Assembly: GCF_004340785.1 (NCBI RefSeq)
Contig: NZ_SLXS01000002.1
Span: forward strand, 186,001-250,000
Direction: 5' to 3'
From: Tumebacillus sp. BK434
GTDB lineage: Bacteria; Bacillota; Bacilli; Tumebacillales; Tumebacillaceae
Length of the DNA stretch: 64,000 bases
A program made the position numbers and the translations under genes. Position 1 is the first letter of the stretch. Every line of letters starts with the position of its first letter. Of the stretch, positions 17,491 to 57,246 are shown piece after piece. The notes beneath the pieces are model-generated. The model had not been told where the DNA came from and made no database searches. It saw only the letters and a list, made by a program, of their open reading frames with translations.

Positions 17491-17530
17491 GACCCCTGCT
17501 TGAATACTTTGAGTAGGGGTCTATATTATG
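17491..17530 (+). terminator. Probable terminator after the glycosyltransferase
   Basis: GACCCCTGCT/AGTAGGGGTC (one G·U) with an 11-nt loop, followed by a weak TATATTAT tract. Confidence 0.55.
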
Positions 17531-17635: not shown

Positions 17636-17664
17636 GTGACAAACCAATGCTAGTTTGCTAATAT
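17636..17664 (+). promoter_or_regulatory. Sigma-A promoter of the S-layer gene
   Basis: GTGACA (17636–17641), 17 bases, TAATAT (17659–17664). Transcription would start near 17671, giving a leader of about 260 nt. Confidence 0.7.
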
Positions 17665-17682
17665 AACAGACATAGGCTCGAG

Positions 17683-17816
17683 CCCTTGAGAAACCTAACC
17701 GCCGTGAGGCTGTCATGAGAGCCTCGCCGGGGAGTGGTTCTGGCGCCACCAGAACCACAACTTGCTAGCCAGCCTATCGATTGCTCGATCGATGGGAGCA
17801 AATATAACCTCAAGGG
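17683..17816 (+). promoter_or_regulatory. Highly structured leader RNA of the S-layer gene
   Basis: A closing stem CCCTTGAG (17683–17690)/CTCAAGGG (17809–17816) encloses three helices. They are GAGGCT/AGCCTC (17706–17725), GTGGTTCTGG/CCAGAACCAC (17734–17758) and a two-part arm TTGCT/AGCAA (17762–17801) containing CCTATCGAT/ATCGATGGG (17773–17796). This is the shape of a multi-branched junction. I could not match it to a riboswitch class. No terminator lies between it and the gene, so a role in translation or mRNA stability is more likely than attenuation. Confidence 0.75.
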
Positions 17817-17933
17817 TAATCACAATTTTTCAACAAGAGAGATTTGATGAAAGCTGTCGAAATCTCTGAACTGTTGCAGAGGTTTCGTGCCAGAGTTCAT
17901 ACAGGTCTCGCCAATCAGAAGGAGGAAGTCTCT

Positions 17934-20900
17934 GTGAACAAAAGCAAGAAACTCACCGCTGCTGTAGCTGCAACCGCAGTAGCATCCGCAATCGTAGCAC
18001 CGGTTGCATCCGCGTCCGTGTCGTTCTCCGACATCAACGGTTCTTACGCGAAAGATGCAATCCTCGAACTGGCGAACGCTGGTATCATCGTTGGCGAAAA
18101 CGGCAAGTTCAACCCGTCCGCTAACATCAAGCGTCAAGACTTCGCAATCATCATGGCGAAAGCTCTGAAGCTTGACCTGACCAACGCTCCGAAGACAGCT
18201 ACTTTCTCCGACGTTCCGACCACGCACTACTCCTACGCTGCAGTTGAAGCAGCTGTAAAAGCAGGTCTGCTGTCCGGTACCGGCAACGGCAACTTCGGCC
18301 TCGGCACCAACCTGACCCGCGAACAAATGGCAGTAGTATTCGTAAACGCTTTGGGCGTTGACGTATCCGGCCTGGGCGCTGGCCTGAAGTTCGCTGACGC
18401 TTCCTCCATCTCCGCATGGGCGAAAGACGCAGTAGCATTCGCAGTTGAAGCGAAGCTTCTGTCCGGCGACAACAACAACAAATTCAACCCGGCTGCTAAC
18501 GCTGAGCGCCAACAAGTTGCAGTAGTTGCTTCCAACTTCCTGAAAGCTCAAGAAGTTTACAAGGCTGCTCAACTGAAGGCAGTTACTCTGAAGGACAACT
18601 CGACCGTTGAAATCTCCTTCACCAAAGCTGTTGAGTCCCTCACCGCTGCTGACATCAAAGTTGCAGTTAAAGGCACCAACACTGAAGTAGCTATTTCCGG
18701 TCTGACCCTGTCGGCTGACAAGAAATCCGCTACCTTCACCGCTGACTTCGCAGGCAGCACCACCTACACCGTTACCTACGGTGGCAAATCTGCAGAAGTA
18801 ACTACTGCTGCTACCAACGCAGTAGAAGTTACGAACGTAACTGCGCTGAACCTGAAGCAAATCAAAGTAGACTTCAACCAAGCTGTTGACGCTGCTTCCG
18901 CAACTGCTTCGGCTAACTACACCTACACTGGTGCTGTCGGCAACGGTTATGCAGCTGAAGGCGCATTCGTGCTGTCGGCTGACAAGAAATCCGTTATCAT
19001 CACTCTTCTGAACGCTGAAGCGCAACAAGCTTCCGCAACCCTTAAGATCAAAGACGTGGTAGCTGGTGACAATAAGCTCGCAGAAGTGACCAAGTCCGTT
19101 TCCTTCTTCGATGCAACTGTTCCGTCTGTTACCACTGCAACTGTAACTGGCCCGTCCAAAGTAACTGTTGAGTTCTCCGAGCCGGTAACTGCTGGTGCCC
19201 TCAACGCTTCTGCATTCTCTCTGGACGGCAACACTTACTCCCTGTCCTCTGCAACTGCAGTTGTAGGCGAGCCGAACAAGGTTGAACTGACCATCGGCGC
19301 TACACTGCCGGAAGGTGAACACACCATCAAGATCAACCCGGCTGGCACTGATCCGGCTAACCAAGTGAAAGACTTTGCTGGTTTCGTTGTTCCGACTGCA
19401 GATGTGAAGTTCACTTACACTGTCGATAAGACTGCTCCGGTTGCTGTTATTGACAGCGTTGCTCAAAACCAAGTAGTCATCAAGTTCAACAAAGCTATCA
19501 CTAACACTGGTGCGATTTCCGTATATCACACCTACAATAACATCTTTAACTACCGCGGTACTTCTTCGTGGAGCGTGGATGGCAAAACTCTGACCGTTAC
19601 TTTCGCTGACGCTCCGCTGGCTGTTGGCACTGCAACGATCTTCGTGAACAACGCTTCTGCTGGCTCTGCTGCTGATGCATGGGGCAACAAGTTTGCAAGC
19701 ACCACTTTGACTGCAACTGTCGCTTCTGATGTGACTGCTCCGACTGTTACTTCCGTGAAGCAAGTTGACAGCACCAACATCGATGTAACCTTCAGCAAAG
19801 CAGTAGAAGGTGCAAACATTGCATCTAACTATGTGCTGAAAGACGCTGACGGCGAAGTTGTTGAAGTCAAATCCGCAACTAAGCAAGGTAACACCAACGT
19901 TTACCGTCTGAACACTGCAATTCTGAACGGTGGTTCCTACACCCTGAGCATTGGTGCTGACCTGATCAAGGACACTTCTTACAACAAGAACAAACTTGCT
20001 GCGTACACTGCTACTGTTAGCGTAACTGACAAGGTTGCTCCGGAAGTAATGCCGTCTGGCGTATTCGCTTCTGACACGAAGAAAGTACAAATCAACTTCT
20101 CCGAAGCAATGACAGATGCTGCTCTGAACGCGTCCAACTACCTGATCGCGTACAACGGCATTGCCAAGCAGTCCCTGCCGACTGGTTCGACTGTGACTTG
20201 GGGTGCAAGCAAGAGCTCCGTTATTATCACCTTCCCGTCCGCTCAGGCCGGCCTCGTTTCTGGCACTTCGAAGGTGTTCGTAGCTCAACTGGCTGACCTG
20301 GCTGGTAACAAAACCGAGGGCTTCCAAAACGAAGTTACCTTGAGCACCGACAACATTGCTCTGGCAAACGTTGTTGCTGGTTCTGTGAAAGCTACTGCTC
20401 GAGACACCATCGAGTTCCAGCTGAACACGGCTCTGACTGCAATTAACGTTGCCAACTTCACGATTAACGGTGTTGCTGCAACTGCTGCTTCTTACGTGAA
20501 TAACGATGGAAAAGCAACTGTGACTGTAAAAGCTCCGGCTGCGAGCAAGTTTGCTACTAACTTGTCCGACCTGAACGCTTCTGCAATCACTATCTCCGCT
20601 AATGGCGTAACCTCCGCATTCGGTACTCAAAACTCCGGTACCGTTACCATCGCGAAAGCCACTGTTAAGGACACTGTTGCACCGGAAATTACCGGCTACG
20701 CAACTGTAGATGCTAACAACAATGGTAAGATCGATGCAGTAACCGTGACCTTCTCCGAAGACCTGTACGTTGCTTCCGTACAAGAGTCCGACTTCACTAT
20801 TGAAGGCTACACCATCACTGGTGTTGCTCTGAGTGCAGGTAATGTTGTAACCATCTCTGTAAAAGAGAACTCTGTGATCGACGCTGATGCTACCCCGAAA

Positions 20901-21299
20901 GTTACCTTGGTTGGCGCTGTTTCTGACAACTCCGCACAACGTAACTCCTTGGGCGCTCAAGCAGCTGTAGCTGCAACCGACTCGATCGCAGCATTCATCA
21001 CCGGCGCTGTATACAGTGTATCTGGTGGCAACCACTACGTAACAGTTACCTTCTCTGAAGGCGTAACCGACGAAAATGGTGCTGCTCTCGACGCAACTGA
21101 CTTTGTACTCACCGATGGTGGTGCAGGTACTGCTACAATCGCTAACGCAGTTCACAACGCTAAGTCCAAGTCTGTTGTTCTGCAAGTATCTGAAGCACTG
21201 ACTGATGGCGCTCTGGTAAATGCCGTAGCAACCAAGGTTAAAGATGCAGCTGGCAACGTTTCTGCAACTGCTACCTTCGCAGTAACCGGCCTCAACTAA
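17934..21299 (+). CDS. Main S-layer protein: three SLH domains plus Ig-like repeats
   Basis: 1121 aa. Signal peptide (residues 1–27, ending APVASA), three SLH domains (about 30–205: SFSDINGSYAKDAILELA, TFSDVPTTHYSYAAVEAA, KFADASSISAWAKDAVAF), then about nine bacterial Ig-like modules of roughly 100 residues with recurring VTVTFSE- and VDKTAPV-type strands. The GTG start at 17934 lies eight bases after AAGGAGG. An in-frame ATG at 17847 would add 29 residues before the signal peptide. Codon use strongly prefers GCT/GCA, GTT/GTA and ACT where neighbours use GCG, GTG and ACG, as expected for a very highly expressed gene. It would self-assemble on the wall through pyruvylated polymer made with CsaB (56110). 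Confidence 0.92.
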   Translation: MNKSKKLTAAVAATAVASAIVAPVASASVSFSDINGSYAKDAILELANAGIIVGENGKFNPSANIKRQDFAIIMAKALKLDLTNAPKTATFSDVPTTHYSYAAVEAAVKAGLLSGTGNGNFGLGTNLTREQMAVVFVNALGVDVSGLGAGLKFADASSISAWAKDAVAFAVEAKLLSGDNNNKFNPAANAERQQVAVVASNFLKAQEVYKAAQLKAVTLKDNSTVEISFTKAVESLTAADIKVAVKGTNTEVAISGLTLSADKKSATFTADFAGSTTYTVTYGGKSAEVTTAATNAVEVTNVTALNLKQIKVDFNQAVDAASATASANYTYTGAVGNGYAAEGAFVLSADKKSVIITLLNAEAQQASATLKIKDVVAGDNKLAEVTKSVSFFDATVPSVTTATVTGPSKVTVEFSEPVTAGALNASAFSLDGNTYSLSSATAVVGEPNKVELTIGATLPEGEHTIKINPAGTDPANQVKDFAGFVVPTADVKFTYTVDKTAPVAVIDSVAQNQVVIKFNKAITNTGAISVYHTYNNIFNYRGTSSWSVDGKTLTVTFADAPLAVGTATIFVNNASAGSAADAWGNKFASTTLTATVASDVTAPTVTSVKQVDSTNIDVTFSKAVEGANIASNYVLKDADGEVVEVKSATKQGNTNVYRLNTAILNGGSYTLSIGADLIKDTSYNKNKLAAYTATVSVTDKVAPEVMPSGVFASDTKKVQINFSEAMTDAALNASNYLIAYNGIAKQSLPTGSTVTWGASKSSVIITFPSAQAGLVSGTSKVFVAQLADLAGNKTEGFQNEVTLSTDNIALANVVAGSVKATARDTIEFQLNTALTAINVANFTINGVAATAASYVNNDGKATVTVKAPAASKFATNLSDLNASAITISANGVTSAFGTQNSGTVTIAKATVKDTVAPEITGYATVDANNNGKIDAVTVTFSEDLYVASVQESDFTIEGYTITGVALSAGNVVTISVKENSVIDADATPKVTLVGAVSDNSAQRNSLGAQAAVAATDSIAAFITGAVYSVSGGNHYVTVTFSEGVTDENGAALDATDFVLTDGGAGTATIANAVHNAKSKSVVLQVSEALTDGALVNAVATKVKDAAGNVSATATFAVTGLN

Positions 21300-21388: not shown

Positions 21389-21423
21389 GATGTCAGGATC
21401 TAAAGCCAATGGAGGGCAAAAAG

Positions 21424-21927
21424 ATGGAAATGAAGAAAGAAAGCTTTTTCACGCGACTTTTTGCGCGTAAAGTAGAAGAACAATCGGAGCCAGCGATTGA
21501 TGAAGCTGCAATTCCGATGAACGCTCAGACGCTCCCTCATACTTTGATTGCGTTCACTGAAGAACAAGAAGCGAAGTTTACAGAGGAACAAAAAGAAGAT
21601 TTGCAAAAAAAACTTTTGGAGCTTCCGCCACTGCGTTTGGGTGAAATAAACTTCGTACCATTTGATGCGGGCTCTTTATTTGGAGGCTACTTTGTACGTG
21701 TCTTTATACGACAGGGAAGAGATCTACTTGAGGAATTTACTTTAAATGAGCTTCCCCTTTTTCTTATTGACGCCTCAGGTGAGAAGGTAGCAGGAGGAGT
21801 TTTTCGTCCGCAAAACTTTGGTACATTGCGTTTTGGCGAATCTAGAGTCTGGACATTTGCATGGCGTCCTGAACAAGTACTAAAGAAGGAAGTTGATCTT
21901 ACTCAGTTCACAGTTGCATTTGAATAA
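21424..21927 (+). CDS. SLAP-domain protein (accessory-Sec S-layer assembly type)
   Basis: 167 aa, no signal peptide. The C-terminal half (FVPFDAGSLFGGYFVRVFIR, then LNELPLFLIDASGEKVAGGVF and a W-x-F motif before the end) matches the SLAP domain pattern (FIRN…LxLxDxxGxxVAxxxF…PWxFxF). In Bacillus some SLAP proteins are tied to the accessory SecA2 route and S-layer assembly. Its place directly downstream of the S-layer gene supports such a role, but no secA2 is visible here. The start at 21424 follows GGAGGG. The DNA is visibly more AT-rich than the regions to the left. Confidence 0.65.
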   Translation: MEMKKESFFTRLFARKVEEQSEPAIDEAAIPMNAQTLPHTLIAFTEEQEAKFTEEQKEDLQKKLLELPPLRLGEINFVPFDAGSLFGGYFVRVFIRQGRDLLEEFTLNELPLFLIDASGEKVAGGVFRPQNFGTLRFGESRVWTFAWRPEQVLKKEVDLTQFTVAFE

Positions 21928-54127: not shown

Positions 54128-54165
54128 CTGTTTATACTAATTGCATTAGTAGCACTATATTCCCC

Positions 54166-54246
54166 TACTGGCAAACTTGACCGAAAGGCAAGGGCGCAAA
54201 GCCACGGGCCTACTGCAGGAATGCGATGGCGGCCGGGCTGCCGAAT
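54166..54246 (+). promoter_or_regulatory. Cyclic di-GMP-I (GEMM) riboswitch
   Basis: The aptamer core reads GGCAAAC, a CCGAAAGG tetraloop hairpin, GGCGCAAAGCCACGGGCC, then GGCGGCCGGGCTGCCG. It has the invariant CGCAAAGCCACGGG segment, the GAAA tetraloop and its receptor, and P1 (GGCA/TGCC). The gene starts 32 bases later, and no terminator or clear anti-terminator lies between, so translational control is likely. Confidence 0.92.
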
Positions 54247-54277: not shown

Positions 54278-55393
54278 ATGAAAAAGTCTGCTTTTCTAGC
54301 GCTGTTGATGGCTGTTGCGCTGACCACCGCTCCGGCGGCTGCGCTGGCCACTGACGGCACCACCACCCCGCCGACCGCTCCTGCGGAAGACGAGACGACC
54401 ACCCCGCCGCCGACGGCGTGCGATCCGCAAGATGACGACGATCAGGATGAAGACGATACTGAGGATGATACCGATACAGGTGAAGACGATGGCAGCACGG
54501 ATGATGGCGCTACTGACGACGGCACCACCGTGCCGCAAGCGAGTAAAAGCTCCCCCGGTAAAAGCGGCTCCGCACCGGGCAAAGGAAACGCTGACAAAAA
54601 CGGCAAAGGCCAATCCGGCAAAGATTCCAAAGGCAGCGTGAAGAACGGCGGCACCAAGGATGACGATGCGACCTCTGCCTGCGGCAGCATCGAAGGCAAG
54701 AAAAAAGGCTGGTCGAACAAGATCAAGAACATTTTGAAGCACCTCGAAGCGGGCAAAAAAGTCGGTAACCTGCAGCAAAAGCTGGCCGAACTGACGCTGT
54801 GGGCCAAGTCGGAAAACGGCTCACAGTCGGACCGCGATGCCTTGCTGGCGATCCTGGAAGCGCTGCAGGCGAAGGAAGAGGTCGGGGAAGCAGCACCGGA
54901 CGACTTGATCATCCTCGCGGAGACGCAAGACCGGCTCCAAGACACGGCTGCTGCCGTCTCCACCTTGGAGCGCGCCCTGCTGCTCGACTACAACCACCAG
55001 GAAGTCTACACCGAGCTCGCCAAAAAGCTCGCCAAAAAAGGCGACAAAGGCGTAAAAGTCTATGTCAAAGGTGCCAAGCCGTCTTTTGACGTCAAACCGG
55101 TCGTCCAAAACGGCCGCACCCTCGTGCCGGTGCGCGCGATCGGTGAATCGCTCGACGCGCAAGTGCTCTGGGACGAGAAGACGAAAACGGTCACTTTGAT
55201 CAACAAGAGCGGCAAGAACGTCACGCTGAAGCTCGGCAACAACATCGCGATCGTCGACGGCAAGCAGATCAAGCTCGACGTCCCGGCGCAAACGATCGGC
55301 GACCGCACCATGGTACCGCTCCGCGCCCTCGGTGATTTCTTCGGCCTCACCGTCGGCTGGGAGAACGCTTCGCAGATGGCAACATTGAAATAA
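54278..55393 (+). CDS. c-di-GMP-riboswitch-controlled secreted stalk-domain protein
   Basis: 371 aa. Signal peptide (SAFLALLMAVALTTAPAAALA), a disordered Thr/Pro then Asp/Glu-rich region (about 25–145, for example DDDDQDEDDTEDDTDTGEDD), a helical domain (about 150–260) and a C-terminal copper-amine-oxidase-N-like domain (TLVPVRAIGESLDAQVLWDE, TMVPLRALGDFFGLTVGWEN). These stalk domains are thought to help wall attachment. The riboswitch upstream ties it to the motile-sessile decision, so an adhesin or matrix role is a fair inference. AAAGGAGG precedes the ATG. Confidence 0.88.
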   Translation: MKKSAFLALLMAVALTTAPAAALATDGTTTPPTAPAEDETTTPPPTACDPQDDDDQDEDDTEDDTDTGEDDGSTDDGATDDGTTVPQASKSSPGKSGSAPGKGNADKNGKGQSGKDSKGSVKNGGTKDDDATSACGSIEGKKKGWSNKIKNILKHLEAGKKVGNLQQKLAELTLWAKSENGSQSDRDALLAILEALQAKEEVGEAAPDDLIILAETQDRLQDTAAAVSTLERALLLDYNHQEVYTELAKKLAKKGDKGVKVYVKGAKPSFDVKPVVQNGRTLVPVRAIGESLDAQVLWDEKTKTVTLINKSGKNVTLKLGNNIAIVDGKQIKLDVPAQTIGDRTMVPLRALGDFFGLTVGWENASQMATLK

Positions 55394-56109: not shown

Positions 56110-57246
56110 CTAGACGCGTTGCGGATGGCTCTTACGTTTGCCCAGCAGGCCGACGGCGAGTTCGCCGCTCGTTTCCGCTTCCTGGCGCAGGGCTTCGACG
56201 TGCGGCTGCATCATCACTTCGTAATGCTCCATGTTCTCGATGCAGTCGAGGATGCGGGCGCGCAGTGAGTCGTAGGTGACGCTGGCGACCGAGTCGATCT
56301 CATAGTCGTAGCCGACGCGCTGCACGAAGCGGTCGATCTTCGGATCGTAGGAAAGCGACACAAACGGCACGCCACAGTGCGCGGCGAGGATCAGCGAGTG
56401 CAGGCGCATCCCGATGATCAGGTCGGTGTTGGCGATGATGTTGGCGATGTCGCGGAACGAAAACTGGCGATTGAGCAGCACGGCGCGTTCTTTCATATAA
56501 GACAGCACGCGCTGCGAAGCGCCGACGTCGCCCGGATACTGCATCGGGATGAACACGACCTGCCAACCGTCGCGAACGAGCGCGTCCGCATTTTCGGCCA
56601 GCACTTTATAATACGTATTGTTCGACGGCCAGTTGCGGATGGCGATCCCGGCGACCTTCTTGATGCCGCCTAAATAGCTCGTCTTCACTCCGAATTCCTT
56701 TAACATCTTCGCTCCGGCGTCTTTTGAAAAAAGTTCCGGGTCGATCGCAAACGCCGGGTCGGCCGTCACGTAGATCTCCGGTTTGGTCACGCCGTATTGG
56801 AGCAGGTCCTGGCGGGATTTCTCATCGCGGACGGTGATCAGGTTGACGTTGTTGACCACGCGGCGAATCAAGTTTTCAGAGAACGGCTTGGTGATCGGCC
56901 CGATGCCTTGTCCATAGAACACGATCGGCTTGCCGATGAACTGAGCCAGTTTGCAGATACCTAAATAATAGAGAATGCTGCGGCCGCCCGTGACGTCCTG
57001 CAGCAAGCTTCCTCCGCCCATGACGAGCATGTCGCATTTCATCAGCTCCCGGATGATCACGCCGAAGTTCCAGCGATTCACCGCTTTGATGCCAAAAAGC
57101 GCTTCGGTTCGGTCGGGCTGGTTGGAAAGCACGATGATCTCCGCGTCAGGCTGCCGTTTGCGGATGCTGGACATGATCCCGTACAAGACGGTGTCGTCCC
57201 CTAAATTGTCAAATCCGTAATAGCCGGATACCAGAATGCGAGGCAT
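56110..57246 (-). CDS. csaB: CsaB, polysaccharide pyruvyl transferase
   Basis: 378 aa. It transfers pyruvate from PEP to secondary wall polymer, creating the ketal that SLH domains recognise. Marks are LVSGYYGFDNLGDDTVLYGI at the N terminus, VMGGGSLLQDVTGGRSILYY, FYGQGIGPI and GMRLHSLILAAHCGVPFVSL. Its presence explains how the SLH proteins encoded at 14286, 17934 and 36850 are anchored. It forms a unit with the Spo0E-like gene on the same strand, but each has its own promoter. Confidence 0.95.
   Translation of the reverse strand: MPRILVSGYYGFDNLGDDTVLYGIMSSIRKRQPDAEIIVLSNQPDRTEALFGIKAVNRWNFGVIIRELMKCDMLVMGGGSLLQDVTGGRSILYYLGICKLAQFIGKPIVFYGQGIGPITKPFSENLIRRVVNNVNLITVRDEKSRQDLLQYGVTKPEIYVTADPAFAIDPELFSKDAGAKMLKEFGVKTSYLGGIKKVAGIAIRNWPSNNTYYKVLAENADALVRDGWQVVFIPMQYPGDVGASQRVLSYMKERAVLLNRQFSFRDIANIIANTDLIIGMRLHSLILAAHCGVPFVSLSYDPKIDRFVQRVGYDYEIDSVASVTYDSLRARILDCIENMEHYEVMMQPHVEALRQEAETSGELAVGLLGKRKSHPQRV

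Follow-up and report, generated by a model that had tools for sequence, protein, structure and literature searches.

S-layer proteins rank among the most abundant bacterial proteins, and how their synthesis is matched to the needs of the cell surface is, to our knowledge, poorly understood. Structured 5′ leaders that stabilize S-layer mRNAs are carried by the slpA messages of Lactobacillus and Thermus and by the cwp message of Brevibacillus, and c-di-GMP-I riboswitches typically control surface and adhesion genes. In the literature on S-layer leaders, the only relevant paper that we found describes the SLH motif, a riboswitch candidate of unproven function that lies 5′ of SLH-domain genes (Stav et al., 2019; PMC6429828). 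According to the text of that paper, the motif comprises 80 examples from Synergistaceae, Clostridia and Negativicutes, about 40% of which precede genes of unknown function (PMC6429828).

The leader described here, found in a 64,000-nt stretch of Tumebacillus sp. BK434 DNA (the window), is likewise a structured RNA 5′ of an SLH-domain gene (PF00395, 5.9e-31), and the SLH motif is its nearest counterpart by context. The two are set apart by description, the consensus of the SLH motif being given in the paper only as a figure: unlike the SLH motif, our leader was found only in Tumebacillus-type Bacilli and before one gene, in a model search that covered its order, class and phylum. As in the slpA and cwp messages, a long structured leader separates the promoter from a highly expressed S-layer gene and lies near the predicted 5′ end of the mRNA; we know of no sequence, and of no multi-branch junction with invariant loops, that those leaders share with this one. 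A c-di-GMP-I riboswitch (RF01051, 71.5 bits) is also a structured leader and is encoded in the same genome, but its fold is different, and Rfam places it at 54160-54245 of the window and not at the S-layer leader. The gene that follows it (54281-55393) encodes a secreted protein, which weakly matches the N-terminal region of an amine oxidase.

The 5′ part of the S-layer leader, which we call domain I, consists of the following features, numbered by their positions in the window:

17683-17816, + strand: domain I, a multi-branch RNA.
17683-17690 / 17809-17816, + strand: P1, the 8-bp stem that closes domain I in the predicted fold.
17699-17701 / 17728-17730, + strand: P2a, which extends P2; P2a and P2 together span 17699-17730.
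17704-17711 / 17720-17727, + strand: P2; with P2a, three pairs with changes on both sides.
17712-17719, + strand: L2, an 8-nt loop, GUCAUGAG; 8/8 positions invariant.
17734-17743 / 17749-17758, + strand: P3, 10 bp; 100% paired, two pairs with changes on both sides.
17741-17748, + strand: palindrome UGGCGCCA, which contains loop L3, CGCCA; 5/5 loop positions invariant.
17764-17766 / 17797-17799 and 17773-17779 / 17790-17796, + strand: P4, in two parts that span 17764-17799; one pair with changes on both sides.
17767-17772, + strand: B4, the bulge AGCCAG in P4; 6/6 positions invariant, compared with 4/13 for the P4 apical loop.

A sequence-only reading of this DNA had proposed that a long-range stem at 17683-17816 encloses three helices, one of them in two parts, with an order far beyond chance. 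Folding confirmed this architecture at the same coordinates. P1 encloses three hairpins, one of which is divided by a 6-nt bulge, and the minimum free energy of −64.7 kcal/mol compares with a mean of −38.1 kcal/mol (sd 3.8) for shuffled sequences (z = −7.06, with 0/200 shuffles as low). Domain I of six other relatives gave z values of −4.7 to −7.6, and the intact leader, with both of its domains, folds at −114 kcal/mol (z = −5.6).

The same reading took the structure to be an unassigned leader RNA of the S-layer gene, and this claim is borne out by conservation, by compensatory changes and by the lack of any Rfam match. In an alignment of P2-P4 from seven sequences, 99.1% of cells pair and six pairs are changed on both sides. 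There are 13 such doubly changed cells, part of them inherited together, compared with a mean of 5.1 in shuffles that ignore relatedness (0/500 as high), and the covariation score is 0.230, compared with 0.140 for the shuffled alignments (0/500). When the partner strand was slid by 1-3 columns, pairing fell to 36-47% and at most one doubly changed cell was left. Thirteen changed cells in seven genomes of two genera may represent few independent events, and the compensatory changes would thus lend good, not deep, support to P2-P4; P1 and P4a never vary and so contribute no covariation signal. Could the conservation instead act on the DNA, as a promoter or recombination site, with the RNA fold a by-product of inverted repeats? 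The adjoining promoter and its dyad are conserved too, and several palindromes lie within the element. However, substitutions in one arm are matched by substitutions at their partners in the other, GU pairs are present on the transcribed strand, and the conserved positions track the loops of the RNA fold 3′ of the predicted start site, which together make a DNA-level explanation highly improbable.

Conservation within domain I is uneven among the unpaired segments. Across the core unpaired columns (J1/2, the P2 bulge, L2, J2/3, L3 and B4), 27/30 are invariant, compared with 6/18 in the P4 apical loop and J3/4 (Fisher p = 7e-5, a descriptive value, as the core and non-core groups were drawn after the alignment had been viewed); in stems P2, P3 and P4b, 33/50 columns are invariant. 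Because stability alone would keep the stems and let the loops drift, specific recognition or packing is favored, and the invariant loops suggest that tertiary packing or a binding partner is at work above the level of a merely stable stem.

Two of these invariant segments coincide with the ends of a short reading frame:

17715-17768, + strand: possible 17-codon upstream ORF MRASPGSGSGATRTTTC, open in 7/7 genomes, with its ATG in L2 and its UAG at B4.

It is conceivable that ribosomes on this ORF open P2-P4 and thereby switch decay or downstream initiation. Its start would be exposed in L2, the sequence before the ATG is purine-rich, and third codon positions account for some of the changes in unpaired columns. 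Still, conservation this high would be expected to keep a frame open even if it were not coding, and most of the substitutions follow base pairing and alter the peptide (S/P/L, R/K/G). As the would-be ribosome site is also weak and sequestered in P2, and there is no terminator to attenuate, we regard control by a leader peptide as very unlikely. A second upstream frame, of 10 codons with a TTG start, was rejected; it varies like non-coding sequence.

Beyond what the sequence-only reading had described, our analysis placed the start of the S-layer gene at a GTG (17934) with a strong Shine-Dalgarno sequence, and added a hairpin at 17839-17909 and a conserved promoter with a dyad. In order along the DNA, these and the adjoining features are:

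17636-17664, + strand: promoter from a promoter scan, with a −35-like GTGACA (17636-17641), a 17-nt spacer and an extended −10, TGC-TAATAT (TAATAT at 17659-17664).
17640-17657, no strand assigned: operator-like inverted repeat CAAAC-N8-GTTTG between −35 and −10; invariant in 7/7 genomes, with a variable 8-nt center.
17675-17684, + strand: 10-nt palindrome GGCUCGAGCC at the RNA 5′ end, whose last two bases are the first two of P1; invariant in 7/7 genomes.
17839-17909, + strand: domain II, consisting of P5, a probable long imperfect hairpin with the loop AACUGUUG (17869-17876); z = −1.8 to −4.6 in seven genomes.
17919-17925, + strand: Shine-Dalgarno sequence AAGGAGG, 8 nt 5′ of the start codon; invariant in 7/7 genomes.
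17934-21299, + strand: S-layer gene with a GTG start, a signal peptide and three SLH domains; 1121 aa.

Not only the Shine-Dalgarno sequence but also the GTG at 17934 is invariant in 7/7 genomes, and a normal signal peptide (MNKSKKLTAAVAATAVASAIVAPVASA) opens there. The starts proposed by the gene caller, ATG 17847 and TTG 17844, were rejected in favor of this invariant GTG, the ATG being missing from the second genus. With translation starting at 17934, the leader comes to about 263 nt. The loop region of P5, which sits between P1 and the Shine-Dalgarno sequence, contains an invariant ACUGUUGC. The consensus fold of P5 includes 11 pairs changed on both sides, yet in some of the genomes several pairs are disrupted, and because of this we grade the hairpin as only probably real. 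An open frame of 1121 aa also runs antisense to the S-layer gene (17820-21185, − strand); it is apparently a mirror of the biased codon use of that gene and not a gene itself.

A single promoter was found ahead of the leader by the promoter scan, with transcription predicted to start at about 17671, some 12 nt 5′ of P1. Its GTGACA and 17-nt spacing are kept in 7/7 genomes, and in most of the second genus the −10 element reads TATAGT. Promoter and dyad without a mismatch occur at one site in this genome, and the dyad is likely an operator for some regulator.

Other genes of the window bear on the cell surface. Just 3′ of the S-layer gene, 21409-21927 encodes a SLAP-domain protein (TIGR04398) with weak similarity to an accessory Sec S-layer assembly protein. 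At 56110-57246 (− strand), some 35 kb away from the S-layer gene, lies csaB, which encodes a polysaccharide pyruvyl transferase (TIGR03609); the csaB product makes the wall ligand to which SLH domains bind.

How widely is the leader distributed? It is present as one copy in this genome and was found in 7/7 Tumebacillus-family genomes examined, which belong to two GTDB genera and include Tumebacillus avium, T. flagellatus, T. lacus and T. permanentifrigoris. In all seven it is 5′ of an SLH-domain S-layer gene, and the S-layer proteins that follow it are related. Each leader-bearing genome contains at least 10 SLH matches, yet the leader is single and stands before the S-layer gene. Upstream, the order of genes for an SLH protein, an O-antigen-ligase-like protein and a glycosyltransferase is also kept. 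Identity between the genera is 80% for domain I, 79% for the promoter and 81% for the signal-peptide codons, compared with 64% for the S-layer coding DNA, 57% for domain II and 35% for DNA further upstream. The S-layer proteins retain the signal peptide and SLH region and diverge strongly behind them, even within a genus; the leader is nearly unchanged.

A model of the element (R1) found no match outside the family when run on 14 genomes from the order and on two partly overlapping sets of 398 genomes each, one from the class and one from the phylum. These two sets, with 391 and 397 other genomes respectively, were searched with stricter filters than the order, so that a very divergent homologue could escape. 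The model still detected T. permanentifrigoris, which had been excluded from its building, at 183 bits. When 84,980 genomes were scanned by pattern, 21 sites came up; the model matched only the four from Tumebacillus, and the remaining sites were dismissed as chance. Searches of plasmids and viral contigs for the element found none. In seven sister genomes, none of the leaders before the best SLH homologues was similar or had an Rfam match, and the two with high z that we inspected by folding were largely long hairpins, one of them an upstream terminator.

If the invariant loops bind a protein, one candidate would be a product of the locus itself. The S-layer protein, the SLAP-domain protein or another RNA-binding protein may bind the loops and, once secretion is saturated, repress its own message. 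In keeping with such autogenous control, the loops stay constant as the S-layer protein diverges, and a homologue of the SLAP-domain gene (TIGR04398) is present in 6/7 leader-bearing genomes and in 0/7 other genomes of the order. However, T. lacus has the leader and no detectable SLAP homologue, and the S-layer proteins are so divergent outside the SLH region that a conserved RNA-binding surface would need to lie in the SLH part. We consider autogenous control unlikely.

The sequence-only reading had also held that no known riboswitch class fits the element and that the leader lacks a terminator, and both statements stand. Rfam 15 at the gathering threshold gave no match in 17675-17816, a permissive search with E up to 10 gave two chance matches, both off the element, and a search of the leaders of the seven loci with E up to 1 gave nothing credible. 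Weak matches to Esr41, an E. coli sRNA, and to the phage sar RNA were rejected as far below thresholds and not on the strand of the leader. No intrinsic terminator was found within the leader, and the only one detected nearby, at 17491-17521, is assigned to the upstream gene. The two comparisons that the reading had proposed as checks, covariation in homologous leaders and an Rfam search, thus leave its claim unrefuted. On the sequence evidence, the element represents a new RNA family, though its kind is known; it is confined to one lineage and compared with the SLH motif by description only. As an RNA it is well supported; its function we infer.

One possible function is that of an orphan riboswitch, in which domain I would be an aptamer, for example for a cell-wall precursor or a cyclic dinucleotide, that alters translation or decay. 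A three-hairpin junction with covarying stems and invariant loops and junctions is usual aptamer anatomy, and for other phyla, candidate riboswitches have been proposed that lie 5′ of SLH genes (PMC6429828). The c-di-GMP-I riboswitch in the same window indicates, moreover, that c-di-GMP signaling to RNA probably operates in this organism. Neither of the usual riboswitch outputs is visible, however, since there is no terminator and pairing of the Shine-Dalgarno sequence, compared across the relatives, differs by genome, with no conserved alternative fold that sequesters it. The element also matches no known riboswitch family and stands before one structural gene only, in one lineage. An orphan riboswitch is in our view doubtful, and the lack of both outputs makes one of the classical kind less likely.

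It is also conceivable that S-layer messages assemble with each other. Invariant palindromes are found at the RNA 5′ end (GGCUCGAGCC), in L2 (UCAUGA), at L3 (UGGCGCCA) and at B4 (GCUAGC), and loop-loop contacts through them could join two or more messages into dimers or clusters, which would then resist decay or be co-translated. The excess of palindromes over shuffled sequences has P of about 0.003-0.06 by count, significant in most sequences, and a borderline 0.03-0.06 by score. A nested dimer is predicted to be about 15 kcal/mol better than two monomers, seemingly mostly from the 5′ palindrome. Palindrome excess and dimer energy are only a hint, and we regard self-assembly as a long shot.

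The reading that we prefer, with moderate confidence, is that the element is a cis-acting leader of the S-layer mRNA, particular to the Tumebacillus lineage, that serves as a 5′ cap slowing decay and as a fixed docking surface. Transcription from the single conserved promoter would start about 12 nt 5′ of P1, and the compact multi-branch structure that the S-layer message would thus have at its 5′ end may shield the mRNA from 5′-end-dependent decay of the RppH/RNase J/RNase Y type. L2, L3 and B4 would either pack together or serve as the docking site of a fixed partner, for which an RNA-binding protein is the likeliest candidate; the docked partner could then tune S-layer output. The second hairpin, followed by an open and strong Shine-Dalgarno sequence, would permit high translation by default. 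We infer that a 5′ cap against decay is the most economical reading of the leader. The invariant loops appear to exceed the needs of a simple stabilizer, and for its docking or packing part, the proposal has to assume a tertiary fold or a partner.

The leader probably sets the lifetime or the translation efficiency of the S-layer message. A compact, strongly selected 134-nt RNA on one S-layer message is a concrete handle on S-layer control, open to deletion, transplantation and probing; it also adds a new family to the RNA databases and is a candidate element for expression where high-level secretion is wanted.
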